Shown here: positions 4,058 through 37,872 of the stretch, one piece after another | How the letters are laid out: each line of letters begins with the position of its first letter | How positions within the stretch are numbered: position 1 is the first letter of the stretch | Origin: a virus | Length of the DNA: 38,675 bases | IMG/VR virus record: IMGVR_UViG_3300035034_002440 | Coordinates: 1 to 38,675 of that record | Reading direction: 5' to 3' (one strand) | The notes under the pieces: model-generated | Told to the model about the DNA's origin: nothing | The model's database searches: none | Seen by the model: only the letters and a program-made list of their open reading frames with translations | Translations under genes and position numbers: made by a program

Positions 4058-4134
4058 AGGCGGGTAGCTCAGTTGGTTAGAGCAACGCGCTCATAACGCG
4101 TAGGTCGTGAGTTCGAGTCTCACCCCGCCTACCA
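4058..4134 (+). tRNA. tRNA with anticodon CAT, probably elongator tRNA-Met
   Basis: A full cloverleaf is visible. The acceptor AGGCGGG pairs with CCCGCCT, the anticodon stem ACGCG/CGCGT holds the loop CTCATAA, the T arm is GTGAG/CTCAC with loop TTCGAGT, and the discriminator A is followed by an encoded CCA. The paired first base argues against an initiator tRNA. Met elongator fits best. An Ile tRNA with lysidine-modified CAT cannot be excluded by eye. The gene abuts the KilA-N stop codon. Confidence 0.95.
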
Positions 4135-5815: not shown

Positions 5816-5961
5816 AAGGAGATAAAGATTTAGAGTTGGTTTGGAAAGCTACTCTAGAATCTTGTAAAGAGACTCAAAGAAAAACGATAAGAAATATTTG
5901 GTTCCATTTAGTCTTAATAGTCTCCCATACCACATTTCTATTATATCAGTTTTTTACTTAG
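5812..5961 (+). CDS. small membrane peptide (49 aa)
   Basis: The ATG overlaps the Dcd stop as ATGA. The first 29 residues are charged. Residues about 30-48 are hydrophobic and aromatic (FHLVLIVSHTTFLLYQFF), a likely single membrane segment, giving a tail-anchored shape. It is the last gene of the plus arm and converges on the minus-strand lipoprotein, overlapping it by 8 bases. Function unknown. Confidence 0.55.
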   Translation: MKGDKDLELVWKATLESCKETQRKTIRNIWFHLVLIVSHTTFLLYQFFT

Positions 5962-6133
5962 CCGCTTTCTCAATATGCTCGTAGCATCCTTGGGTTCTCA
6001 TCCTCACTACACACGCCGCAATCTGCCATTTATTCAATTTAGTCTTACTAGTCCTCCTTTTGTCTTTAGAAGTTCCACAGGACGCTAATAGGGCGATTAA
6101 AAGAAATAATCCGATCTTAGTCCATGCATTCAT
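5954..6133 (-). CDS. small lipoprotein (59 aa), o-spanin-like in size
   Basis: The N-terminus is a type II signal peptide with lipobox LASC (Cys19), followed by a very basic stretch (KDKRRTSKTK) and two more Cys (41, 50). Size and lipidation resemble Rz1-type outer-membrane spanins or small host lipoproteins, but it is not Pro-rich and no inner-membrane partner is evident beside it. The start overlaps the upstream lipoprotein gene by 17 bases. It is the last gene of the minus arm. Confidence 0.65.
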   Translation of the reverse strand: MNAWTKIGLFLLIALLASCGTSKDKRRTSKTKLNKWQIAACVVRMRTQGCYEHIEKAAK

Positions 6134-7472
6134 ATTCTTCTATACCAGCGTTGCTACCGATTTCAGTTAAAACGTTAGTTGTTGGATTTAGTTTTAAGAA
6201 TTTATCGTCGATTGAAATATCTAAAGAGCCGTTACAATACGTTATCCAGTTCGGCTTTGTGTATGCGCTAACGTTAATCAGTGTTTCAACTCTTGTTTTT
6301 GCGTTTGTTTTTGATAATTTTAAAGATCCGTCGTTCCCAGATATCATAAATATATTTTCTTTATCGAAATCTTGAAAAAAATTAACTATAGAATGCGCGG
6401 AAATACTAGAGCCTACAAACTCCATTTGATTTTTACCAAAAGAGTTTAGATCATAATAAAAAAAACGGATTGAAGACTCGCAAAGCAAGTACCCTTCATG
6501 GACCTCAGACAATAAGCAATTGCTTAAAGAATACGGTATGTTAAATCTATTTGAACCGCCAGAATAACACCATTGCCCTATGTTTGACTCATTATAACAA
6601 TCAACGAGACCCGGTCTAGAAAAATATACCTTTGTTCCGCCGCTTTCATTCACGCAAAGATAATCATAAGGGGCTTCGTCTCCTGAATTTCTTATTTTAG
6701 CGACAATGCAATTTAAATCTTTCTTAAAGACGTAATCAAAATCCTCAGCGTTAAACCCGTCTGTGTTTGAATAACCAGCTACTCTGTTGCTAATTGAAGC
6801 TGTAAACGTTGAGTCTAGTCTAGTGTATGTATTATTGAAAAATTTATAAATATAATGCTTGCCGTTATTTTTTCTAAAATGAATAAAATTCGAATGAACT
6901 GTGAAATGTTTCACATCGCTAGTCATTACAAAAGCTACTGAATCACCCGTATTTGTTAAAACAAGGTTAATCAAACCGCTATTAGTATTGAAAAAATAAT
7001 GGCCAAGTCTTTGATAGATTAAAGAAGAACTTTTTAAGTTACCTGACTGGCTTTTAGGCAACCCTATTTCAGAAAGAGGTACGGCAATATCATTTGATAA
7101 AACAATGTAAACTTCTTTGTCTTCTCCGTCTGAGTATTGAATCGCTTTTGAAGCCCCTGATATATTGTAAACAGAAACAAAATTTTCTGGCTGCATATCT
7201 TCGATAGTGTCGGAAATAGGGACTAGATCTCCGCTTTGGTAAGTGATTAAATTATCAGTAAAAGAAGAGCCTACAGAGTTTGAAGAGGAATCGCCTCTTT
7301 TGACTGCCGCGTTTGAATTACCGCTTAGTTTTATCGACTTTATTTTTGATGAGCTTATTTTAGGGGGCGTAGATTCTGATTTTTTATCTTTCTCTTCTCC
7401 ATTGTTTGAATCAGCGCAAGAAAAGAAAATAAAAGAAAAAGCTACTGCATAAAAGATGGTTCTTGCTGCCAT
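6117..7472 (-). CDS. large surface lipoprotein following the tail fibre (451 aa)
   Basis: A signal peptide ends in lipobox FFSC (Cys19), followed by a long Ser/Asn/Lys-rich linker (20-75) and then about 370 residues of beta-rich sequence with recurring Tyr, Gly and Asn and several Cys pairs. This resembles a beta-propeller or other repeated-sheet fold, but no named domain is clear. The ribosome-binding site is AGAGGATTTCC. It lies downstream of the tail-fibre genes, the usual place for receptor-related extras. A lipid-anchored protein is more likely a cell-surface product (receptor blocking) than a virion part. That is inference. Confidence 0.8.
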   Translation of the reverse strand: MAARTIFYAVAFSFIFFSCADSNNGEEKDKKSESTPPKISSSKIKSIKLSGNSNAAVKRGDSSSNSVGSSFTDNLITYQSGDLVPISDTIEDMQPENFVSVYNISGASKAIQYSDGEDKEVYIVLSNDIAVPLSEIGLPKSQSGNLKSSSLIYQRLGHYFFNTNSGLINLVLTNTGDSVAFVMTSDVKHFTVHSNFIHFRKNNGKHYIYKFFNNTYTRLDSTFTASISNRVAGYSNTDGFNAEDFDYVFKKDLNCIVAKIRNSGDEAPYDYLCVNESGGTKVYFSRPGLVDCYNESNIGQWCYSGGSNRFNIPYSLSNCLLSEVHEGYLLCESSIRFFYYDLNSFGKNQMEFVGSSISAHSIVNFFQDFDKENIFMISGNDGSLKLSKTNAKTRVETLINVSAYTKPNWITYCNGSLDISIDDKFLKLNPTTNVLTEIGSNAGIEEYECMD

Positions 7473-11327: not shown

Positions 11328-11699
11328 TTAAATCCCGAGCTCTGTTTCTGCCTCTATTGCGCCAAATATAGAAAGAGCAACAATATTAACATTTATGGTG
11401 TTGTTTATGATTTCGTAATTCAACTCTGTAATCTGCTCTACCCCATTAACTTTAGTGACCGCGGCTCTTATCTCTGCCTCTTTAGCCACTGAAAGATTAG
11501 TTGCCCCAAGTAACGGATCTTCTTTATCAAAATAGCCAATCCCTTCTGTAAAATTAAGAAACCAATCTCCCGCGACTGAGTTAAGGTTTGTGATAATTTG
11601 CTGTTTTATGACGTCGGCGTCTTCAACGAAGACAGGCGCTCCGTTTTCTATGACAAAACCGTTAATTGAGTCGTATTTGTAGTCCCTAAAAGTAGTCAT
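11328..11699 (-). CDS. gp25-like / DUF2634 baseplate wedge protein
   Basis: 123 aa. The pattern IITNLNSVAGDWFLNFTEGIGYF is the core of the gp25/lysozyme-like wedge family, which links sheath to baseplate in contractile tails. It sits directly upstream of the J-like gene, as in other contractile phages, and overlaps the spike gene end by one base. Confidence 0.88.
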   Translation of the reverse strand: MTTFRDYKYDSINGFVIENGAPVFVEDADVIKQQIITNLNSVAGDWFLNFTEGIGYFDKEDPLLGATNLSVAKEAEIRAAVTKVNGVEQITELNYEIINNTINVNIVALSIFGAIEAETELGI

Positions 11700-12367
11700 T
11701 ATGGTTTTATGTCAGGGTTTGCAAGCGACGCGATTTTAGCTGCAAGAGTAACTAGCGTCTCGCTTGACCTGATAACGCTAGGCACAGCCGCTAAGGTTCC
11801 GCCCGCACTGTTAGGTTGGGAAACAATACTGATTAGGTCTTGCATCATCCTTAATAAGTCCGCTGTTGAATTTCCAATTTCTAAAAAAGTACCATCGGCT
11901 GTTTTTATTTGGCCAGTGTTTATTTTTGGGGGCGTTGGCCACCCTTTTAAATCAGGAGAAAGCCCCAATACCGCTACTGCGTCAGCATGAAAAAACTTTC
12001 TACCATCACTAGGCAAGACTAAACCTCCCGTATTTTTCCAATCAGCTAGGAAATTATTTGTAACAATCAATAAAACGTCAAGCCCTGCCATGCTTAATGG
12101 GTCCATAGGAGGTCTTATCATAAACGTGTTAGTTTTTCCGGGAAGTAATATTGGAACGTTCAGTATTCTTTGAGGGTAAGGAGACTTTGTTAAACTATCG
12201 ACTTTCAAGAACCCACTAAAAACATCTGCAACATAATTATTTGGGTTTGATAATGATGGCCTTGCCGCAATTATATTGCCGGGCATTGAAGTGCTTACAC
12301 TAGACATAACTCTAGAGACAACGCTCTCTATCGCATCTTCTAAATCATCGCTTCCATCAAAATTCAT
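11699..12367 (-). CDS. Gp138-type membrane-puncturing spike protein
   Basis: 222 aa. The N-terminal region (MPGNIIAARPSLSN...VADVFSGF, then YPQRILNVPILLPG, then GRKFFHADAVAVLG) has the layout of the Gp138 N-terminal domain, an OB-fold platform for the central needle. The C-terminal 60 residues are mainly helical. The needle itself appears short. Placed between hub and wedge genes, as in small contractile phages. Confidence 0.85.
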   Translation of the reverse strand: MNFDGSDDLEDAIESVVSRVMSSVSTSMPGNIIAARPSLSNPNNYVADVFSGFLKVDSLTKSPYPQRILNVPILLPGKTNTFMIRPPMDPLSMAGLDVLLIVTNNFLADWKNTGGLVLPSDGRKFFHADAVAVLGLSPDLKGWPTPPKINTGQIKTADGTFLEIGNSTADLLRMMQDLISIVSQPNSAGGTLAAVPSVIRSSETLVTLAAKIASLANPDIKP

Positions 12368-21538: not shown

Positions 21539-22696
21539 TTAAAGTGGTTTTGAAGAATAATCGACGTTGGGGTCACCCTCACTGTCGTTTAGTTTGTATG
21601 TCTCAAGATTTCGTAAAGAATTAATATTACCATTAATTTTTTCTGAATCCTTATGATAAATATCCCAAGCTGCGTCTTCGTACCCTTGGATGGAATCAAA
21701 CTTTTCTTTGTCGTATCCTGCAAGCGCTAGGATTTCCCTAGTCGCTTTTTTATTAATTTCTTCAAATGATCCTGAATCCGGCATTTTATATTCAATGATT
21801 TTAGCAGAGTTTAAAATCTCTTCACGCCTTTTCATCAAAGAATCTAATTTCTCTTTTTGAATAGAGTTTTTGCCAGAATCTCTCAAAGAGGCGTTTTCTT
21901 TTTCTAAGGAGTCAATTCTCAACTTAAAACTATCCATTTTTACTAAATCAGATGCGGTAGAGTCGGACTTCTTATCTTTTTCGCTAATCAGCGTGTCTAT
22001 TTCCTTCATACACATATCTAAAGCTTTCTTCATTGCAAGAGTATCCTCGTTTTCTTCAACTTCCATTGAATCAATCTTCAAGCCGCTTTTCTCGTATGCA
22101 CCCACTTTAATCTTCATTTTCACCTCATTTGTTGTTTTATTGTAGTCAATATAAGCAGAGCCTTTTGCATCAAGCCTTAAGCAACACGAACTACCGGCCC
22201 GCCCTTCTGTTGTTGCTGTAACGTGATTATACCTAATTTCTAATTGCCTAAAATCGTAAGGTTCGCCGCCATAAACTCCTGGTTCTTTAACGGTTTTACA
22301 TGTGTAGCCCGCTGAAAGTTCAAGCATTTCCTCGTCTTCGATAGAGTCCATTGCTTCTTTTGAATAAATAGCTATTTTACATTTTAAATAATCTCCTTCG
22401 ACCGTGATATTTTCACCTATGGCTCCTTTTACTTGTTCTTCTGAACTTTCAGGTTTTACAAATCCACCCCTATGCTCCAATGTGAACGGTTTTAGAGATA
22501 AAGTTTTTATTGATTCTGGGTCAAAAACCTGGTCGGGATGCCGAAGCTCTCTAACAATATTGCCATTAGAATCTTCATATTTAAGAACCCCAACTCTAGT
22601 TGGTGTTGCCTCAAGGATTGCGAAACCGTTCTCATCTAAATGTTTATCGAGCTTCTTAATCCTACTTCTAACGAAATCCCATCTCTGCACGTTCAT
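21539..22696 (-). CDS. DUF2213 prohead protease with C-terminal scaffold-like region
   Basis: 385 aa. Residues about 1-190 carry the DUF2213 pattern (TPTRVGVLKYEDSNG, then RELRHPDQVFDPESIKTLSL, HRGGFVKPE, and RYNHVTATTEGRAGS). The region about 205-385 is a long Asp/Lys/Ser-rich coiled coil, as expected for a scaffold domain, so protease and scaffold appear fused. The RYNHVTATTEG segment probably contains active-site residues, but I cannot assign the triad. The start overlaps the membrane protein gene as ATGA. Confidence 0.8.
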   Translation of the reverse strand: MNVQRWDFVRSRIKKLDKHLDENGFAILEATPTRVGVLKYEDSNGNIVRELRHPDQVFDPESIKTLSLKPFTLEHRGGFVKPESSEEQVKGAIGENITVEGDYLKCKIAIYSKEAMDSIEDEEMLELSAGYTCKTVKEPGVYGGEPYDFRQLEIRYNHVTATTEGRAGSSCCLRLDAKGSAYIDYNKTTNEVKMKIKVGAYEKSGLKIDSMEVEENEDTLAMKKALDMCMKEIDTLISEKDKKSDSTASDLVKMDSFKLRIDSLEKENASLRDSGKNSIQKEKLDSLMKRREEILNSAKIIEYKMPDSGSFEEINKKATREILALAGYDKEKFDSIQGYEDAAWDIYHKDSEKINGNINSLRNLETYKLNDSEGDPNVDYSSKPL

Positions 22697-22977
22697 GACA
22701 ATAACCCCACCATGTATTCAAAAACCGTAGACCAAAAAGCTATTATAAAAGGCGAAAACTGGGCAAAAACAAGGATAAAAACAAGCGTGTAAATGCTAAT
22801 CAAAGTAATCCTTTTTAGAAATTTAGACTGTCTCGCGAAAACATCCGTTGACTGAAGAGTCATTGCTCGAGTCGCTAAAGCTCCCGCTAAAATTATAAAG
22901 TGCCACTTTATATTGTGATCAACTTGCTTAACTGCGACATAGCCATTTGATAGCGTTTGGAATAATTCAGTTATCAT
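22693..22977 (-). CDS. small membrane protein of the head-operon cassette (94 aa)
   Basis: Two or three hydrophobic stretches are visible (about 26-40 and 55-92; the second is long enough for two helices), with a positive loop between (RQSKFLKR). Size and layout are holin-like, but no family matches. It overlaps the 155-aa membrane gene upstream and the protease downstream. An alternative is an immunity or export component. Confidence 0.7.
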   Translation of the reverse strand: MITELFQTLSNGYVAVKQVDHNIKWHFIILAGALATRAMTLQSTDVFARQSKFLKRITLISIYTLVFILVFAQFSPFIIAFWSTVFEYMVGLLS

Positions 22978-23434
22978 TGCCCGTCCTTTTATATTGTATC
23001 ACGTTATCGTTTTTTAAATCTTTCTCAAATAACCCGAACTTATTGAATACTTCCAAAGGTGTCATGCCAGCCAAAGCGTAAGGAATTAGTAGTGTTGTTG
23101 GCATTAACGCTACAAAGTTAAAGAAAGCGGTCCCTGCCTGCTCAACCCCATAAAAAAGACGGTGCAAAGCTATCGACCAAGCGGAAATTATCGCAATCCT
23201 TATATATAAAGTCAGATTGAAACCGCTACTCAGAAAACACCAAAGAAAACAAAAACAAAAGACTACCCAAAAGACCGTCAAAAATATGTAATCATTTGTG
23301 TGTACAATTGAAACATTTTGTGCAGTACTCTCATATAAATATATAACATGCGATAAAAGCAAAGACAAAACACCAGAAAGTAAAACTCTGTGGATGTCTC
23401 TTGGGGCCCTAAATATCTCGAGAAAGTATTTCAT
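22967..23434 (-). CDS. four-helix membrane protein of the head-operon cassette (155 aa)
   Basis: Four likely membrane segments at about 17-34, 50-69, 73-92 and 102-122, several rich in Phe, Trp and Cys. The N-terminus and C-terminal 30 residues are charged. It is encoded between the FGE-like protein and the 94-aa membrane protein, with overlaps on both sides. No family recognised. Plausible roles are holin, superinfection exclusion or a partner of the neighbouring anchored protein. Confidence 0.72.
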   Translation of the reverse strand: MKYFLEIFRAPRDIHRVLLSGVLSLLLSHVIYLYESTAQNVSIVHTNDYIFLTVFWVVFCFCFLWCFLSSGFNLTLYIRIAIISAWSIALHRLFYGVEQAGTAFFNFVALMPTTLLIPYALAGMTPLEVFNKFGLFEKDLKNDNVIQYKRTGNDN

Positions 23435-24483
23435 TATTCGAAATCCTTAGTTTCAAAAACACACCTAAAATTTGAATACGTCTCAGAATCTCCTACCGTC
23501 TTTACGCCGTTAATCACTCTTGAATTGATTGGAGGTAGAGACCCGTTTTTCATATATATGTCGTAATAGTCCCCGATTTCGTCAATTACCCATTCTGGAT
23601 ACTCTGACTCAGTTTTTATTCTATAAAACAAATCTTTTTGCTTAGCGAAATGCTTAACCATGACGGAGTCCAATTCATTTCGAGTCGGTAGTCTCGCGTT
23701 ATGTATCTCGCAAAATTCTATAGCTTCGCTTCTTTTTGAAAACTTTGGTTCTTTACTTTCTGTAAAACTCCCGTCTTCATTTTTTGTGACAAGTCGTGAC
23801 AGATTACGCATAACAAATAAGTTATTGTTGCTATAACTATATAAATCTCTTAGAAACACACCCTCTTCGAGCATCTCTTTTTCAAGCTCTTTGAATTCTT
23901 CAGAATCAAAAACAAAATGGTCTTTCTTTGTAGATTTCTTTTTTATATCGATAACTTCGCCGCTAATATTCTCAATTGAAGTTTTCGCCATAAATTTATA
24001 AAGATAGCCACCGGTTTTCGACTCGTAGGCTTTATCAAGCAAATATAAAGCTGAGTAAGTCGCTGACAATAAAATAAACCCAGCAATAAACCTAAACCCC
24101 CAATTTAAAAACTTCTTAGTGTTTGAGCCTGCTTTTTTTAATTTTTCTGGGGCTGTAATGTAAGGCAATAAAGAAAAACCAGTATTAGGTTTTTTCAATT
24201 TATTATTTTTCAATTTCTTATCGAAAAAAAGAAACTCGTGTGTTGTGTTTATTTCGTACTGATCTTTTTGAAAAAAGATCTTAATCTTATGCCATCCAAT
24301 CCCATCATCTACTACTCTAAATTCGGGGTTGGGAACTGAAGTTGTTGTTAAATTTAAAAACCCTAACTCGTTAGGATCATATTCACCCAACAATATAATA
24401 TCGATCTCAAAACCATTAGGGACTCTAAGAGAGAAAGACTCATTAAATAATTTTTCTTTGCTAGAATTTGGAACGTACGTCAT
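23434..24483 (-). CDS. membrane-anchored protein with FGE/C-type-lectin-like C-terminus (349 aa)
   Basis: Residues 1-90 are a soluble beta-rich domain. A single membrane segment lies at about 131-149. Residues 250-345 read like the formylglycine-generating-enzyme/C-type-lectin fold: AIEFCEIHNARLPTRNELD, then PEWVIDEIGDYY, then INGVKTVG and SNFRCVF. Enzymatic FGE normally needs a Cys pair near the end; here only single Cys at 258 and 341 are seen, so ligand binding is likelier than catalysis. It overlaps the MuF gene by four bases. Function unknown. Confidence 0.72.
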   Translation of the reverse strand: MTYVPNSSKEKLFNESFSLRVPNGFEIDIILLGEYDPNELGFLNLTTTSVPNPEFRVVDDGIGWHKIKIFFQKDQYEINTTHEFLFFDKKLKNNKLKKPNTGFSLLPYITAPEKLKKAGSNTKKFLNWGFRFIAGFILLSATYSALYLLDKAYESKTGGYLYKFMAKTSIENISGEVIDIKKKSTKKDHFVFDSEEFKELEKEMLEEGVFLRDLYSYSNNNLFVMRNLSRLVTKNEDGSFTESKEPKFSKRSEAIEFCEIHNARLPTRNELDSVMVKHFAKQKDLFYRIKTESEYPEWVIDEIGDYYDIYMKNGSLPPINSRVINGVKTVGDSETYSNFRCVFETKDFE

Positions 24484-25388
24484 AATATACCCAAGCTTTT
24501 TAATTGTTGTGTCTTTTCTTCTGCTTTAATTATCTTAGTTGTCCTTTCGCCTAGTAAGTCTTCTATTACCATTTCTGCTTGACATTTACAGTTTATATCT
24601 TGCCCGGGCTCGTTCCTTTCTCCAGATCTTTTCCCTGTGGTTACTGTAATTGGCGGCTTGCCCCACTCAAAAACAGCGCCTTCTAATTTTGCATGATCAT
24701 CTCTAACCGCGATATTCCCTCTTGTTCGCCAGATATAACGAGATCCACCGTTTGATTTTTGTCTTACCTTGTCGAGCTGCCCGTTAAGTTTCTGGATTTG
24801 GTCAGTAGCGACCAGTTTCGCTCTTGATTTGTGGAATTCCCCACGATCAATAATTTTTTCTTTTAATTCTTTTACTATGCTTTTGTTTGAAGTACCCGAC
24901 TGCAAACCGCCCATCACAATGTCTTCAACTTCTGAAAAATAACTTTCTGAAATAGTTGTGATCTTCTTTGTATTAGACTTGATCGATAATTCTAAATATT
25001 CTTTAACAAAAGGATCTGACTTTAAAGGCTCAACATTAGCGATGCTATTTAAAGATTTATCAAACTCCCTCTTATGATCGTTGCCAGCCCCAATAAAAAC
25101 CTTATCAACTTTCTTGATGATTTTTCTTTGATATAAATTAGTGTCAGGAATTCCGCCAGCAAGCAAAGCTCCGAAATGGTTAATGTAAATCCCTCTCAAA
25201 ACCCTTTTAAACAATTCAGAGAACGATGAAATACTATCTTCCCTTTGAACCACCCCTATTAAAATCGGGAATAAATCCTTTTTTACGAGCCTTTCCGCGT
25301 TCTTAATTTCACTATCAAAGATCTTTTTTAGTTTGAATCTATAAGCATCACTTATATCAACAATCAATTTCTTTCTCTTTTTACTCAT
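24480..25388 (-). CDS. MuF-type head morphogenesis protein
   Basis: 302 aa. The C-terminal part shows the MuF signature IAVRDDHAKLEGAVFEWGKPP ... PGQDINCKCQAEMV. Members act in head assembly next to the portal and sometimes enter the cell with DNA. It lies directly after the portal and before the membrane cassette. The ribosome-binding site before its ATG is weak, and a 13-bp palindrome TTGTTGTCAACAA (25399-25411) sits there. Confidence 0.88.
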   Translation of the reverse strand: MSKKRKKLIVDISDAYRFKLKKIFDSEIKNAERLVKKDLFPILIGVVQREDSISSFSELFKRVLRGIYINHFGALLAGGIPDTNLYQRKIIKKVDKVFIGAGNDHKREFDKSLNSIANVEPLKSDPFVKEYLELSIKSNTKKITTISESYFSEVEDIVMGGLQSGTSNKSIVKELKEKIIDRGEFHKSRAKLVATDQIQKLNGQLDKVRQKSNGGSRYIWRTRGNIAVRDDHAKLEGAVFEWGKPPITVTTGKRSGERNEPGQDINCKCQAEMVIEDLLGERTTKIIKAEEKTQQLKSLGIL

Positions 25389-25427: not shown

Positions 25428-26864
25428 TTACGACTCATTATTGCTTTCCTGAGAACTATCGGATTCACCCCGCGATATCTCTGCAACCCTCTCTTCTTCC
25501 ATTGCGTCACGTTCAGATTCATCTATAATGTAAGAATCATAGTCAAAGTTGTCACTGCTAAATCTTGATTTTGTACCCTCGTCTGGCGTAAGCATTCCGA
25601 TTTCAACATACGCTTTGTCGATTTCGGATGAAATCTTCCTCGCTTGTAATGATTCGAGAAGAGTTGGTTCGCTAAGATTGTTGAATTTAAATTTGCTTTT
25701 TCTGGGGTCAAAACCCATTAAAAGTAAACATTTTTGAATGCTTTTCCGACCTTTCGTGTTTTGTATCGATTTTAGACGTTTATGATAATTTCTTAAATCA
25801 GTTTCAGCGCTAGAGCCTCCTAATGCTCCGCCTTCAGCACTAAATAAAACTGAATGAGGTATTCCAGGGTCAGCAGCGGCACAAACTTGGTTTGTAAATC
25901 TGTCCAGCATTTCGGGGAGTCCAGCAAGATTCGCTGAATCTCTTTTTAATTCCTCTTCATCTCCAAAAACACCGACGTTTTTCATACCCATCAAAGATAT
26001 CGCTTGCTGCGCTTTTGTTATTATTAAATCGTCTTCATTGTTCGCCACTAATTCAGCTAGACCCTCAATTTTTAGGGTTTTCCAAAAAAACTCACCCACC
26101 GCATCAGTTGCAGACTGGAAAGATATTCCATAACTTTTAAGAGCCGAGTTGAAAGGCTCAAGAACTGATAAACCCCATCCTCTACGCTCAACGCGAAATT
26201 TTTGTGCACTCGGGGGTTTCCCATCTATCAATATTAATCTGGAATGATGAATTTCTCTATTTTCCGAGCTGCCGGGTTGAATAATTATAGTCGTGTAGTG
26301 CTCCGGCTTGCCGATAAGCGAAGGATCAACATCTTTCCTAGATGCATTATAATATGTTATAGGAAAACAATACCAGGAATTTACAACCTCTATTCTTTTA
26401 ATGTTTTTATATGAGGGGTTTTTTAGAGGTAATCTTTCGTCGTCACCGTAATCGAACCAAATAGCTGCGCCATAATGGTTGCGAGATTGTTTCATAGCAT
26501 GAATTATTTTTTCTTTTATTTCAAACTCATCAAAAAGGTCCTCTATCATCTCGATTTGAGATGCATTTGAATCCTCTTCATCGTTAGACTTAATGAATTC
26601 GATCCAATTCGAAAACATATCGTCTACGGGAGCATCGATAACTCGAGACGCTAGCCAGTTTTCATTATACAATCTTTCTAACTCATGCATAGACATCCGG
26701 CCGTCACTAAGGAATGTAGTATTGCTAGAAATGTCATACCCCCCACCGAGCCCTGTGTTTGGATTGTAAAACGAATCCTGTCTCCTTTTGAGAGTACTAC
26801 CTCTTTCGGTCAAAGCTTTATCCATCGTGATTCTTTTTTTTGCTCTATTCTTTTTTTTAGACAT
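25428..26864 (-). CDS. phage portal protein (DUF1073 type)
   Basis: 478 aa. The N-terminus after a basic stretch shows the DUF1073 portal layout (YNENWLASRVIDAPVDDMF, then KQSRNHYGAAIWFDYGDDERLPL, and RLILIDGKPP), with the helical clip/stem in the middle. The C-terminal 60 residues are acidic and helical. The portal is the dodecameric gate for DNA packaging. It overlaps the terminase gene by eight bases, the usual neighbour. Confidence 0.85.
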   Translation of the reverse strand: MSKKKNRAKKRITMDKALTERGSTLKRRQDSFYNPNTGLGGGYDISSNTTFLSDGRMSMHELERLYNENWLASRVIDAPVDDMFSNWIEFIKSNDEEDSNASQIEMIEDLFDEFEIKEKIIHAMKQSRNHYGAAIWFDYGDDERLPLKNPSYKNIKRIEVVNSWYCFPITYYNASRKDVDPSLIGKPEHYTTIIIQPGSSENREIHHSRLILIDGKPPSAQKFRVERRGWGLSVLEPFNSALKSYGISFQSATDAVGEFFWKTLKIEGLAELVANNEDDLIITKAQQAISLMGMKNVGVFGDEEELKRDSANLAGLPEMLDRFTNQVCAAADPGIPHSVLFSAEGGALGGSSAETDLRNYHKRLKSIQNTKGRKSIQKCLLLMGFDPRKSKFKFNNLSEPTLLESLQARKISSEIDKAYVEIGMLTPDEGTKSRFSSDNFDYDSYIIDESERDAMEEERVAEISRGESDSSQESNNES

Positions 26865-28665: not shown

Positions 28666-29370
28666 TTATAAATCGTAATTAAAATCTTCTAAATTAAAAT
28701 CCATCACTAAACCGTTATCTACATTTAATTGTTTTCGATTATTTTCTTTATCTAAAACCAAAGAAAGCTTCCTTGATGATTTTACCGAATGATTATCTTC
28801 AATATTAATATCTTTAAAAGCGTTGTCAAAGAAAGAAACAAAAAAGTCTGACAAATCTTTATTATCATCGATTTCAAATAACTCCAGACGGGTATTTCTA
28901 TTTAAATTCGCGCTTGTTCTAACGACAAAATTAAAATTTTCATTTCTTATAACAACAAATTTGGCATGTATTCTAGTTGTCCGTACGCAATCACCAAATC
29001 TATCGAGTAATTTTCCGAACTCTTCGTTTCTGTACTGCTTAGCTCCAGTGTCTATCATGAATTTTATATTTCTTATCTTATTCGTGTTTAAGAACTCAAA
29101 AGCTTTTTTTATACCGTCGCTACTAGCGGCCCACGTAGACAAGTAAACATCTGCCGGTCCGCTTTTAATTAATAAATATTCAATAAGGTCAGAAAGAGAG
29201 AATTGACCACCAGTCAAACCTATTCTTGATCCTCCTTTTTGGATGTCTCCAACTATGTTTTTAATACTCGCTTGTGAACTCATTAATGTTTTAGTCTCCT
29301 CTTTTATAAATGAAAATGAAAGTTGGTCATCGGCTATTTGTGACGGTAGAAAATCTGGTGTTTTTTTCAT
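28666..29370 (-). CDS. phospholipase-D-like (single HxK) protein
   Basis: 234 aa. Residues 133-141 (RIHAKFVVI) hold His135 and Lys137 of an HxK motif, followed by TSANLNRNTRLE (152-163), as in one-motif PLD-superfamily proteins that work as dimers. The family includes nucleases and lipid enzymes; substrate is unknown here. The N-terminus (KKTPDFLPSQIADDQLSF) resembles a group of proteins I associate with genes beside terS. A strong AAGGAGG ribosome-binding site precedes it. Confidence 0.78.
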   Translation of the reverse strand: MKKTPDFLPSQIADDQLSFSFIKEETKTLMSSQASIKNIVGDIQKGGSRIGLTGGQFSLSDLIEYLLIKSGPADVYLSTWAASSDGIKKAFEFLNTNKIRNIKFMIDTGAKQYRNEEFGKLLDRFGDCVRTTRIHAKFVVIRNENFNFVVRTSANLNRNTRLELFEIDDNKDLSDFFVSFFDNAFKDINIEDNHSVKSSRKLSLVLDKENNRKQLNVDNGLVMDFNLEDFNYDL

Positions 29371-30626: not shown

Positions 30627-30764
30627 TTATTTAAAAAACAATGATGTGATAAGAGCGCAAGCAATAACTATAAAAGATATTTTTAATACCACTTTTAAAA
30701 ACTTCCACCCGATTAGTGTCATGATTAAAAGAACTATAGCGAAAATAACAATAAAAACTTCCAT
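30627..30764 (-). CDS. tiny two-helix membrane protein (45 aa)
   Basis: Almost entirely hydrophobic, with two membrane spans (about 3-19 and 27-44) split by a short WKFLK loop. Its ATG overlaps the stop of the outer-membrane protein gene by one base, so it is coupled to it. Size resembles very small holins or toxin-like peptides. No family recognised. Confidence 0.62.
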   Translation of the reverse strand: MEVFIVIFAIVLLIMTLIGWKFLKVVLKISFIVIACALITSLFFK

Positions 30765-31465
30765 CAGAAAAGCACTTGAAAAGTTATTCCATGCAAACTC
30801 ATTCCAATGTTCCTTTCCGCCCCCGAATCCTTCCCTGCAATTGAAATATATCTATACCCAATTCTTGAGCTATCCGATTCATCTAGCGCGTATTCGTAAC
30901 CGACACTCATAAACTCCGTTGTTCCTGAGTACTGTTCACCAAGGAAATCAACTTTTGAATCCGCGATCCCTATTTTACCGAAAATTATACTTCTATTTGT
31001 TATCCATGTTCTAATCCCAACGTAAGCTGCAACGTGTTTGTGATGAATATCATCGTCTGTTTCATCACTAAGATGAGAGAACTTTTGATCGATAAAAGTT
31101 GCCCCAATCGTGAAAAATTCACTAATATTATGTTCGAGGAACCCGCTTATACCTTCAACTCCAGCGTATTGATTCCCGTCTTGATAGGGCACAGCGTAGG
31201 CAGAGACCATTAAGCCAATCGCCCACCTTTTGTATTTCGCGTACCCTTGGTTTGCTGATCTATCCCCTTCATCGTCCTTACGATCTCCCGCTCCGTCACT
31301 TTTGGACTGGAGCCCGACAGAGTCGAGAATAAAATTATTTTGTACTCCTTTTCCTTCTTCAACGTGCCGTTTGCATGTCGTGCCGATCTTGCCTGCACAC
31401 CAAGCCTGTAAATTGCCGGCGAAAAACAAAGAAATAAAAACAGATATAACTAAAGCTTTAATCAT
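30764..31465 (-). CDS. outer-membrane beta-barrel protein (233 aa)
   Basis: A clear Sec signal peptide ends LQA at residue 21. The mature protein starts with two Cys (23 and 30), then a charged Gly/Asp-rich linker to about 75, then repeated amphipathic strands (RWAIGLMVSAYAVPY, FFTIGATFIDQ, HVAAYVGIRTWI, EFMSVGYEYAL, RIGYRYISIAG) ending in Phe, the usual BAM insertion signal. It is probably an eight-strand barrel. Phages use such proteins (for example lambda Lom) to alter the host surface. It overlaps the small lipoprotein gene as ATGA. Confidence 0.85.
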   Translation of the reverse strand: MIKALVISVFISLFFAGNLQAWCAGKIGTTCKRHVEEGKGVQNNFILDSVGLQSKSDGAGDRKDDEGDRSANQGYAKYKRWAIGLMVSAYAVPYQDGNQYAGVEGISGFLEHNISEFFTIGATFIDQKFSHLSDETDDDIHHKHVAAYVGIRTWITNRSIIFGKIGIADSKVDFLGEQYSGTTEFMSVGYEYALDESDSSRIGYRYISIAGKDSGAERNIGMSLHGITFQVLF

Positions 31466-31685: not shown

Positions 31686-32074
31686 TCTAACTCTCTTTTC
31701 AACAACTCTTTGCCTTCATGTTTTAATTTAATATTTGTAGACTCAATCAAATTTTGAATTTGGGATTGTGTTCGCGCGTTCTTCTCTTGTGATAATAAGC
31801 ATAAGTAGCGCCGCCTTTCTTTCTCTAATTTGCAAATATTTTCACGAGTGAATGCAGGGCTCAAAGTGTAAATATGCTCCTTTGTAAAATCTTTAAAACC
31901 CGTAACGTTGACAACTACGTTGTTGCTTTTTTGATCAAATGCACCAATTATTTTTTGGACAAATGATCGCATAAAATCATCTGATTGGCCTTCATATTCC
32001 GCCACATCCAACAAAAATCTAAACATGGATTGTATTTCAGACTTTAGATTCTCACCTTTTAAATCTATTTCCAT
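31673..32074 (-). CDS. hypothetical helical protein (133 aa)
   Basis: Charged, mainly helical protein with a long C-terminal Lys/Glu helix, probably coiled coil. No domain recognised. A very strong ribosome-binding site (AAGGAGGGGG) precedes the ATG. Its 3' end enters the duplicated hairpin element, which separates it from the lipoprotein-barrel cassette. Confidence 0.72.
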   Translation of the reverse strand: MEIDLKGENLKSEIQSMFRFLLDVAEYEGQSDDFMRSFVQKIIGAFDQKSNNVVVNVTGFKDFTKEHIYTLSPAFTRENICKLEKERRRYLCLLSQEKNARTQSQIQNLIESTNIKLKHEGKELLKRELESKL

Positions 32075-32092
32075 AATCCCCCTCCTTTTTAT

Positions 32093-32149
32093 TTATTTCA
32101 TACTTTTAATTAGAATTTCAGAAATGAGTCCTGTTATAATTTCAATCAT
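32093..32149 (-). CDS. possible 18-aa leader ORF
   Basis: A short ORF (MIEIITGLIS...) ending 18 bases before the strong ribosome-binding site of the next gene. It has no convincing ribosome-binding site, so it may be chance. If translated it could act as a leader for the 133-aa gene. Confidence 0.2.
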   Translation of the reverse strand: MIEIITGLISEILIKSMK

Positions 32150-32197
32150 ATATTTGCCGTTTAGTTCTCCATGAATTCTATTTATGCATGGCTATTT

Positions 32198-32758
32198 CTA
32201 AAGTTTAAACCTTAATTTTGTCGGATAATAAACAGTTCCGATTTCTTTTCTTATAGCATCTTCAAGTGATTGAATCATTTTTTGAGTTTCTTGTTTAGGT
32301 CCTAAACCTTCAAAATCATCAATATTTAAGTCAGAAAAATAATTTTCTAAAAAATCATTGATTGCGCCTTTTTCTAAATAATCTCCTTCTTCAGCTAAAA
32401 CTAATTTATCGAAATCTTTAATACTATCGTATTCAATATAGTCGTAATATTCTTCTTCGGAATTGAAGATTTTGTCCGATTGGTAGATAAAAAAAGGCCC
32501 CCCATTATACTTAACTTCCTCTAAAGAATAAAAAACCTCTTCTCTTTTTGCTTCGCTGCACCTCTTACAGTAACTGTTTTTTTTATATACTGAACCGCAT
32601 TTATCACACTCGTAATGAGTGCATTCGCAATATCTAGCGTTATCCTCGTCTTTTTCTTTATTAATTCCGTAAAAATGGTTTTCAGAAAACCAACCTGTCA
32701 ATTTCCTAGTTTCAAATTTCACAGGGGCATCTTTCTTTAGTATGATTTTGTCTTCCAT
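32198..32758 (-). CDS. zinc-ribbon protein (186 aa)
   Basis: Residues about 42-68 contain CECTHYECDKCGSVYKK followed by CKRC, enough Cys and His for one or two zinc sites. The rest is acidic, with many Asp/Glu/Tyr. A GTG three bases upstream is an alternative start. It resembles phage zinc-ribbon hypotheticals and has no nuclease motif. It lies downstream of hairpin copy B. Confidence 0.68.
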   Translation of the reverse strand: MEDKIILKKDAPVKFETRKLTGWFSENHFYGINKEKDEDNARYCECTHYECDKCGSVYKKNSYCKRCSEAKREEVFYSLEEVKYNGGPFFIYQSDKIFNSEEEYYDYIEYDSIKDFDKLVLAEEGDYLEKGAINDFLENYFSDLNIDDFEGLGPKQETQKMIQSLEDAIRKEIGTVYYPTKLRFKL

Positions 32759-36454: not shown

Positions 36455-36664
36455 ATGCAAAATAAATTCAAAAAACACGATAAAGTAAAGCATTTAAAAT
36501 CGGGACTAGAGTACACAATATTGAACAACCCTATAAAATCTATGCGCCTAGAGCATAGCAATGAGCCTTTCTATCAATACACTGCTGGAAAAGGTGTTGC
36601 GTGGTTTAGATGCAAATCCGAGATGGAAGATGGAAGATTTTCTTTAATTGAAAATGAAAGTTAA
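36455..36664 (+). CDS. small beta protein, YodC/DUF2158-like (69 aa)
   Basis: The opening NKFKKHDKVKHLKSGLEYTILN resembles the DUF2158 start (GD-x-V-x-L-K-S-G) of small beta-barrel proteins, and KSEMEDGRFSLIE closes it. Often found in phage early regions without known function. Its end overlaps the DUF1367-like gene. Confidence 0.62.
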   Translation: MQNKFKKHDKVKHLKSGLEYTILNNPIKSMRLEHSNEPFYQYTAGKGVAWFRCKSEMEDGRFSLIENES

Positions 36665-37097
36665 TTTCACAAAAATTGCGGGGGGCGTTCTAGTCCCTTT
36701 TTCGCAAAATGAAGTTTTGAGAATGCAGCGATTCAAGAATGGCGATGTGTACGAAATAGATATTAAACTCGCTAGAGACGGAGGATTTAACGGGAAACTT
36801 CACGCATTCTTTGATTTTTGTTTCAACTACTGGAACCAACCAGGTTTTGAATATTCAGATGAGACGGTGCAAAGAGAAGAATTTCGCAAACAACTAACTA
36901 TTTTAGCAGGTTTTAAAGAAGTTATTCATAATCTTGACGGAACTTTTAAAATCGAAGCTAAATCTTTGAAGTATAGCATGATGGATCAAGAGGAAGTTGA
37001 GCGCCTTTTTAGATCATTGATTGATGTTGTAATGCATAAACTTTTCAAGACTGACGATAAAAAAATAATGGAAAAACTATTTAAAATATTGAACTAG
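36654..37097 (+). CDS. DUF1367-like recombination-associated protein (147 aa)
   Basis: The ATG at 36654 is preferred over an upstream TTG at 36648. The plan KVNFTKIAGGVLVPFSQ, MQRFKNGDVYEIDIKLARDG and GKLHAFFDFCFNYW resembles DUF1367 phage proteins. Its place between YqaJ and NinG fits a role in recombination or replication. Confidence 0.72.
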   Translation: MKVNFTKIAGGVLVPFSQNEVLRMQRFKNGDVYEIDIKLARDGGFNGKLHAFFDFCFNYWNQPGFEYSDETVQREEFRKQLTILAGFKEVIHNLDGTFKIEAKSLKYSMMDQEEVERLFRSLIDVVMHKLFKTDDKKIMEKLFKILN

Positions 37098-37104
37098 GGA
37101 AATT

Positions 37105-37872
37105 ATGAATAAAATAATACACGCAATACTATTAATGCTTTTAATTTCTTCATGCTCAAATGACGACACTTTAATGATAAAAATTAAAGGGGAAATTAGA
37201 GAGTCTGATAAAATCGTGGGCGCTCTTTCTGAATCTATGGATAGTCACGTAAGAATAGTTTTCGTAGAAATAGAAAGTCCTGGTGGATCTCCGTACCACT
37301 CTAAAATCATTCATGACAAATTAAAAGAAATATCCAGAACTGTTAGAGTGATTACTTATTGTGCTAGGGTTTGCGCTAGCGGGGGTTATTACATAGCGTC
37401 CGCGGGAGATAAGATTTATTCAGGTAATTATTCTTTGATCGGCAACATCGGGGTAATTATGAATATTTATAATTTTAGCGGTATTATGGAAAAAGTAGGG
37501 ATATCTCAAAAAACCATAAAAACATCTAAATACAAAGACGTTGGAAACATGCTCCGAGATATTGAAAAAACAGAGCTACAATATTTAGAAAACCTGGCTA
37601 AAAACATGAGTATCATGTTTAAGGACGATATTGAACACAATAGAAATTTACTTCAAGTAAATAAAGAAGAGGCTTTCAGTGGTAAAATATTTCTAGCTAA
37701 AAAATCAATAAAACTCGGCCTTTCTGACGAAATATCTAATAAAGAAGATATTATGAATAAAGAAAATATGTTAAATATAAGAAATGTTGAAATAGAAGAT
37801 GTGTCTAGCTTTTTATTAAAGTTTTATAACTTTATATTTAATTCTTACTCATCAAAAATGGAATTTTTTTAA
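37105..37872 (+). CDS. S49-family (SppA-like) peptidase lipoprotein
   Basis: 255 aa. A signal peptide ends in lipobox ISSC (Cys17). Residues 54-65 (VEIESPGGSPYH) and 90-99 (CASGGYYIAS) give the SppA oxyanion/nucleophile pattern, with Ser92 the expected nucleophile. TSKYKDVGNMLRD (140-152) gives Lys144 as the general base of short SppA enzymes. The dyad looks intact. S49 enzymes cut signal peptides or membrane proteins. A phage S49 peptidase is normally a capsid protease in the head operon; here it is lipid-anchored and in the recombination module, so an envelope target is more likely. Confidence 0.85.
   Translation: MNKIIHAILLMLLISSCSNDDTLMIKIKGEIRESDKIVGALSESMDSHVRIVFVEIESPGGSPYHSKIIHDKLKEISRTVRVITYCARVCASGGYYIASAGDKIYSGNYSLIGNIGVIMNIYNFSGIMEKVGISQKTIKTSKYKDVGNMLRDIEKTELQYLENLAKNMSIMFKDDIEHNRNLLQVNKEEAFSGKIFLAKKSIKLGLSDEISNKEDIMNKENMLNIRNVEIEDVSSFLLKFYNFIFNSYSSKMEFF

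Follow-up and report, generated by a model that had tools for sequence, protein, structure and literature searches.

What is known of where tailed phages begin their heads, and of why some begin them on the membrane, comes largely from T4 and a handful of giant phages. Head assembly in T4 is initiated at the inner membrane by way of the portal protein (gp20) and the host insertase YidC (PMC9026906). Heads of SPN3US also assemble on the inner membrane, and their release follows proteolysis (PMC9026906).

The locus described here belongs to the IMG/VR virus record IMGVR_UViG_3300035034_002440, which is 38,675 bases in length and is referred to below as the window. Between its MuF-like minor head protein gene and its prohead protease gene lie three membrane protein genes, designated A, B, and C. 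By analogy with the systems above, their products may form one inner-membrane complex that would act as a platform for assembly of the portal vertex and prohead, the leading reading of those considered, although one that falls short of probable.

Organization of the Locus

The minus strand of the window carries, in order, the small and large terminase, portal and MuF genes, then A, B, and C, and after these the protease, cement, major capsid protein (MCP), and tail genes. The features of the locus are as follows.

25428–26864, minus strand: portal protein, assigned by position and homology and conserved among six phages.
24480–25388, minus strand: MuF-like minor head protein (PF04233, Phage_Mu_F, E 8e-15), the upstream neighbour of the trio in all six phages.
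23434–24483, minus strand: gene A, 349 aa, with a beta-sandwich, a transmembrane segment, a helical neck, and a C-type-lectin/FGE-like domain; an ORF with homologues at the same location in five other phages (19–47% identity).
24208–24462, minus strand: residues 8–92 of A, an Ig-like beta-sandwich, predicted cytoplasmic, from AlphaFold2 and structural neighbours.
24034–24111, minus strand: residues 125–150 of A, a transmembrane helix, from a hydropathy peak in six of six members and a model helix at 118–152.
23437–23871, minus strand: residues 205–349 of A, a predicted periplasmic C-type-lectin/FGE-like domain, from invariant residues and weak family matches.
22967–23434, minus strand: gene B, 155 aa, four transmembrane helices with invariant polar residues, from the ORF, hydropathy, and a model.
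22693–22977, minus strand: gene C, 94 aa, two transmembrane helices with a basic loop, from the ORF and hydropathy.
21539–22696, minus strand: DUF2213 prohead (head-maturation) protease (PF09979, E 7e-36; PHROG 530, E 1e-59), the downstream neighbour of the trio in all six phages.

The MuF, protease, cement, and capsid proteins were assigned using Pfam and PHROGs. Contractile-tail types of baseplate hub (E217 gp41-like), Dit-like protein, and tube are encoded among the tail genes. The original prediction had placed a three-gene membrane cassette between MuF and the protease, and the three ORFs are present there on the minus strand. They are not chance ORFs, because the same ORFs recur in the same order on five other phage contigs. 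The translational linkage it had read from the gene ends also holds: MuF and A overlap by 4 nucleotides (24480–24483), A and B by 1 (23434), B and C by 11 (22967–22977), and C and the protease by 4 (22693–22696). B, C, and the protease each have a Shine-Dalgarno-like run upstream (AAGGAT, AAGGA, and GGGG, respectively), and that of A is weaker.

Several other features of the window were recorded. An ORF beside the small terminase (28666–29370, minus strand) matches a PHROG endonuclease family (phrog_16945, E 2e-42) and has a lower GC content (0.313). A 233-aa secreted protein (30764–31465, minus strand) has a signal peptide, a beta-barrel-like pattern, and no Pfam match. It is a possible outer-membrane protein with 61% identity to its counterpart in contig L012 and a relative in L013. 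Distant from the head genes is a Peptidase S49 (SppA/SohB-like) ORF with a lipoprotein-like signal (37105–37872, plus strand, E 8e-32). Two tRNAs are on the plus strand, tRNA-Met (4058–4134, also matched by Rfam) and tRNA-Phe (36617–36707, ARAGORN only). Past the tail fibre are small lipoprotein ORFs of 58–59 aa, the size of an o-spanin (window 5954–6133, minus strand; L013 contig 25870–26046), and a 451-aa lipoprotein (window 6117–7472, minus strand). These are possible lysis or surface genes.

Protein A

Protein A has one transmembrane span in six of six members by Wimley-White hydropathy. Lys and Arg residues are more numerous before the span than after it in several members and about equal in others. 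The topology is likely N-in/C-out, with charge alone leaving doubt.

The N-terminal 90 or so residues are modelled by AlphaFold2 as a seven-strand beta-sandwich with a pLDDT of about 80. This sandwich is probably cytoplasmic in the predicted topology. Its structural neighbours in VIA-align are Ig-like/jelly-roll sandwiches with Z of 4–6, all below significance. Among them, likewise below significance, are CBM/filamin-like sandwiches, three T7-type tail-fibre N-terminal anchors, and a cyanophage tail protein. The full A model has a mean pLDDT of 58.7, falling below 50 at residues 276–338. This low-confidence model gave no significant Foldseek match, a result that an unlisted fold would also give. 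Langerin is among the VIA rows for the model with Z 3.3, the C-terminal domain being poorly modelled.

The C-terminal domain contains the invariant residues A254, C258, R264, E270, E297-W298, and F339-R340-C341. C258 and C341 are the only cysteines common to all six members. They occupy the site of the long disulfide in C-type-lectin domains, a placement that fits a periplasmic location. The EW and FRC motifs are taken to be those of FGE-type proteins. The signature A..C, R-[LI]-P-T-like (RLPT-like)..E, EW[VTS], FRC occurs in order in all six members. It was found in 0 of 120,000 composition shuffles and nowhere else among the roughly 300 ORFs of the six phages, a control that is descriptive because the pattern was composed after the alignment had been viewed.

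Family searches gave weak but convergent matches. FGE-sulfatase matches A of L022 with E 0.0036 and 17.4 bits (cut-off 23.3), or E 1.1e-4 when that record alone is searched. Lcl_C matches A of the window with 11.8 bits (cut-off 34.9; E 0.007 for one genome), and Intimin_C matches A of L013 with E 0.18. The best PDB match of the C-domain profile is intimin (E 0.17). All four matches fall on one helix-loop with the pattern A..C....RLPT..E, and none passes a curated family cut-off. The outer domain therefore shows resemblance to a superfamily rather than membership of any one family. Judged from these sequence patterns, its resemblance to the C-type-lectin/FGE superfamily is very probable, in agreement with the FGE/C-type-lectin-like outer domain of the original prediction. 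A phage C-type-lectin protein that is the variable protein of a diversity-generating retroelement (DGR) would have a reverse transcriptase and a template repeat close by; no reverse transcriptase was found among the subset of window ORFs scanned.

Proteins B and C

By the same hydropathy scale, B has four transmembrane spans in all six members and C has two spans around a basic loop, also in all six. The predicted count of one span for A and four for B is thus borne out. The predicted model of B is a four-helix model. Its invariant polar residues are D13, H15, R16, H29, R79, H91, R92, and E98. The model has a mean pLDDT of 65.4, and its nearest folds, EmrE and LTC4 synthase, have Z of about 5, which is within noise for helical bundles. 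The fold match was not significant, and an unlisted fold would still be compatible with this.

The positive-inside rule predicts an N-out, C-out topology for C. In L024 and L046, C has an extra N-terminal, signal-like hydrophobic stretch. A VirB2-like or pilin-like identity for C, suggested by a signal peptide followed by two spans in these two phages, found no support in Pfam and was rejected. No Pfam family, holin families included, matches B or C above noise. PHROGs, again with holins included, gave no match above noise for B and C of the window or for the other B proteins scanned.

Distribution of the Trio

The order MuF-A-B-C-protease is present on one strand in six of six distinct phages (the window, L012, L013, L022, L024, and L046), which belong to a poorly known contractile-tailed group. 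This count covers the clade members in which the MuF-protease interval is covered; a further contig, L014, stops at MuF. In L024 an additional ORF separates A from B, and a small one separates MuF from A. Single-query searches with A and B returned a near-identical contig only. L012, L013, L022, and L024 were retrieved by MuF, MuF-alignment, and portal-alignment searches, and L046 by the B profile alone.

Six records with a related MuF outside the clade gave no match to the A or B profiles. Four of these, Leptolyngbya phage Lbo-JY16, Rhizobium phage RHph_I72, Vibrio phage 1.016.O, and MW202455, have no trio, and their protease gene comes immediately after MuF or is separated from it by an ORF of 35 residues. 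In phiPLPE and KpV52 the gap is filled by unrelated genes (L006 5788–6849 and L007 5430–7465). Gene product 26 of phiPLPE and the KpV52 gap genes were considered as membrane homologues of A or B and rejected, having no match to either profile. The KpV52 gap holds a 62-aa two-span ORF that is on the opposite strand and unrelated to the trio. Because these two gaps hold unrelated extra genes, lineages other than this clade may have a hot spot for insertions in the MuF-protease interval.

Searches found no relatives of A or B among 50,697 phage records (isolated phages) or 72,556 plasmids. In GTDB (one genome per species), none was found for B by a short-peptide motif scan, which distant relatives can escape, and none for MuF in the same set. 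Literature searches found no comparable membrane trio in a head operon. The trio is a new, conserved, uncharacterised module with a putative function.

Two observations concern the relatives themselves. The L024 contig (42,786 bases) carries ParA-like (KGGVGKT), replication-initiator-like, and integrase/recombinase-like genes, identified by eye; this gene content suggests a phage-plasmid or temperate phage. A YdjM-like inner-membrane protein (PF04307) is encoded in the three longest relatives (L013 contig 31823–32260, L024 contig 11373–11870, and L046 3801–4238). It is close to the head region in two of the three and was not found in the window.

Inheritance of the Trio

The lowest identities to the window proteins among the six phages are 19% for A, 28% for B, 13% for C, 40% for MuF, 32% for the protease, and 24% for MCP. 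The trio is kept at MCP identities of 24–32% and across changes in terminase and shell genes. Across pairs of phages, identity in MuF, in A, and in B rises and falls together (r 0.92–0.95).

The pair L024 and L046 shows a divided pattern. Shell identities are 40% for the protease, 33% for cement, and 37% for MCP, and the identities outside the shell are 55% for the portal, 64% for MuF, 47% for A, 56% for B, and 46% for C. Tail proteins (tube, Dit, hub, and baseplate J) have 64–67% identity. The ratio of shell identity to portal/MuF identity is 0.62 in this pair versus 0.80–1.19 in the other 14 pairs. For the trio the ratio is 0.83, which is normal for close pairs. The large terminases of L046 and L024 gave no BLAST match to those of other family members. 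On the simplest reading, the shell block alone would have been replaced or have diverged separately in L024 or L046, the trio staying with the portal and MuF. Since the shell diverged while the trio stayed close, and since the terminase differs between subgroups, the trio is tied to the portal side and not to one particular shell. This argument rests on a single event in one genome pair.

Promoter-like sites numbered 13 versus 15.8 expected by chance, with no trio promoter above chance. No terminator-like sites were found on the coding strand of the trio. Its GC3 is like that of neighbouring genes. A recent insertion or moron was rejected on these grounds, together with the single site in six of six phages despite deep divergence. 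The occurrence of MuF-A-B-C-protease in all six phages, down to the lowest identities of 19%, 28%, and 13%, also argues that the trio was not recently inserted. The trio is, by these comparisons, an old, fixed part of the head operon in its clade.

The original prediction had described the cassette as inserted, which is contradicted by its vertical conservation at one site. To its question whether the trio moves as a block the answer is divided: the three genes stay together in every phage, but at the same site throughout, with no support for mobility. The possibility it raised that the genes are constant structural proteins of related phages is matched for presence, and inside the clade only.

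Possible Functions

Deep conservation in place and the lack of known relatives make a core job probable for the trio, such as tethering head assembly to the membrane. A core late function, as opposed to an accessory one, is indicated because of the constant presence, the overlaps with MuF and the protease, the absence of a promoter or terminator of its own, the neighbour-like composition, and the co-inheritance with portal and MuF. A platform for portal-vertex and prohead assembly is favoured by four points. All six phages, divergent as they are, retain MuF-A-B-C-protease; the trio stays with the portal-MuF side in L024 and L046 while the shell differs; A is predicted to be N-in with a folded cytoplasmic domain; and T4 and SPN3US give precedent for membrane-based head assembly. 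The genetic linkage of the trio to portal and minor head genes persists through the divergence of the six phages.

In such a platform, A, B, and C would be made together with the late head genes. B and C would form the membrane body, and the cytoplasmic beta-sandwich of A would hold the portal/MuF initiation complex. The outer C-type-lectin-like domain would anchor the complex or report through a periplasmic ligand, either peptidoglycan or an envelope protein. At maturation, the protease encoded next in the operon would free the finished prohead. The platform would be a phage-encoded counterpart to the portal and host insertase YidC of T4. A fuller proposal is that a myophage clade supplies a dedicated scaffold for building portal and prohead at the inner membrane, made of three phage proteins, anchored in the periplasm by a lectin-type domain, and encoded as a fixed part of the head operon; this is less likely than not.

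Several points count against a platform. Lbo-JY16, RHph_I72, 1.016.O, and MW202455, with a related MuF and similar head-gene order, manage without the trio. Vertical inheritance could by itself account for a position next to MuF. The argument from the shell swap comes from one genome pair, and the similarity of the A N-terminal domain to tail-fibre anchors is below significance (Z 4–5).

Superinfection exclusion, or envelope modification more broadly, would place B and C in the inner membrane. The lectin-like domain of A would bind either a component of an arriving phage or a receptor in the periplasm and stop DNA entry by related phages. Exclusion systems typically include membrane proteins that carry a binding domain in the periplasm, some clade members look temperate or plasmid-like (the integrase-like and ParA-like genes of L024), and unrelated extra genes also occupy the same gap in phiPLPE and KpV52. 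Genes for exclusion, however, tend to be patchily distributed and to carry a promoter of their own, whereas no trio promoter stands out, GC3 is neighbour-like, and the trio is in all six members through large divergence. It would also be expressed late, with the head genes. An exclusion role is unlikely on this evidence.

A lysis or lysis-timing module, with C and B as holin and antiholin gated by A as a sensor of the periplasm, is somewhat harder to sustain. C is holin-like in size and topology, the trio holds the only multi-span phage genes found in the window, and no peptidoglycan hydrolase was recognised among the ORFs scanned in the window, L013, and L024. Against this, no trio member matches a holin or endolysin family, and the trio is adjoined by MuF and the prohead protease in all six phages, with no peptidoglycan hydrolase in or beside it. 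The many invariant charged and histidine residues of B are unlike most holins. Small lipoproteins and other small transmembrane genes lie elsewhere, past the tail fibre (window 5954–6133; 58-aa and 67-aa ORFs of L013).

Packaging of the trio in the head with MuF, for an inner-membrane DNA channel at infection, is improbable. The trio is encoded right after MuF, and the MuF of the window matches PHROG 4529, whose annotation reads "minor head protein and DNA pilot". The type II signal anchor of A and its outer domain with an invariant cysteine pair nevertheless suggest insertion in the membrane of the producing cell, as does the signal-like N-terminus of C in two phages. Host attachment by the virion, one of the roles first put forward, is unlikely because A is membrane-inserted. 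An auxiliary metabolic gene set, with the trio as a membrane enzyme or redox module and a cofactor bound by the invariant histidines of B, is very improbable: H15, H29, H91, R92, and E98 do lie within the predicted four-helix bundle, but no family or significant fold match was found, EmrE and LTC4 synthase being at noise level (Z about 5).

Comparison with Known Systems

A membrane trio conserved at this position, with a minor head gene on one side and the prohead protease gene on the other, would be a compact, genetically separable system for studying sites of head initiation. Should its role prove to be lysis or exclusion, the trio would still be a novel membrane module, fixed in its phage clade, for which the searches of public phage, plasmid, and genome collections found no relatives.

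The small two-span and four-span proteins, with their predicted late expression, resemble a holin/antiholin cassette. The trio differs in having no family match or endolysin partner, in lying between two head genes, and in including a large outer-domain protein. It resembles superinfection-exclusion proteins in consisting of phage-made inner-membrane proteins. Those are usually single accessory genes, whereas the trio is a three-gene unit, fixed in its clade and overlapping head genes.

The outer domain of A shares with C-type-lectin, FGE, Lcl_C, and intimin domains a helix with A..C, the R-[LI]-P-T-like..E stretch, EW, and the final FRC. It differs from these domains in that it is below every curated cut-off, with no catalytic role of FGE implied, and is borne on a type II membrane protein from a phage head operon.

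No sequence relationship was found between the trio and the membrane head-assembly components of T4 or SPN3US. T4 uses host YidC and the portal; here three dedicated phage membrane proteins would serve. The likeness to T4 and SPN3US would be a head assembly that is coupled to the inner membrane and that the prohead protease concludes; here the trio genes are linked to portal and MuF and adjoin the protease gene.
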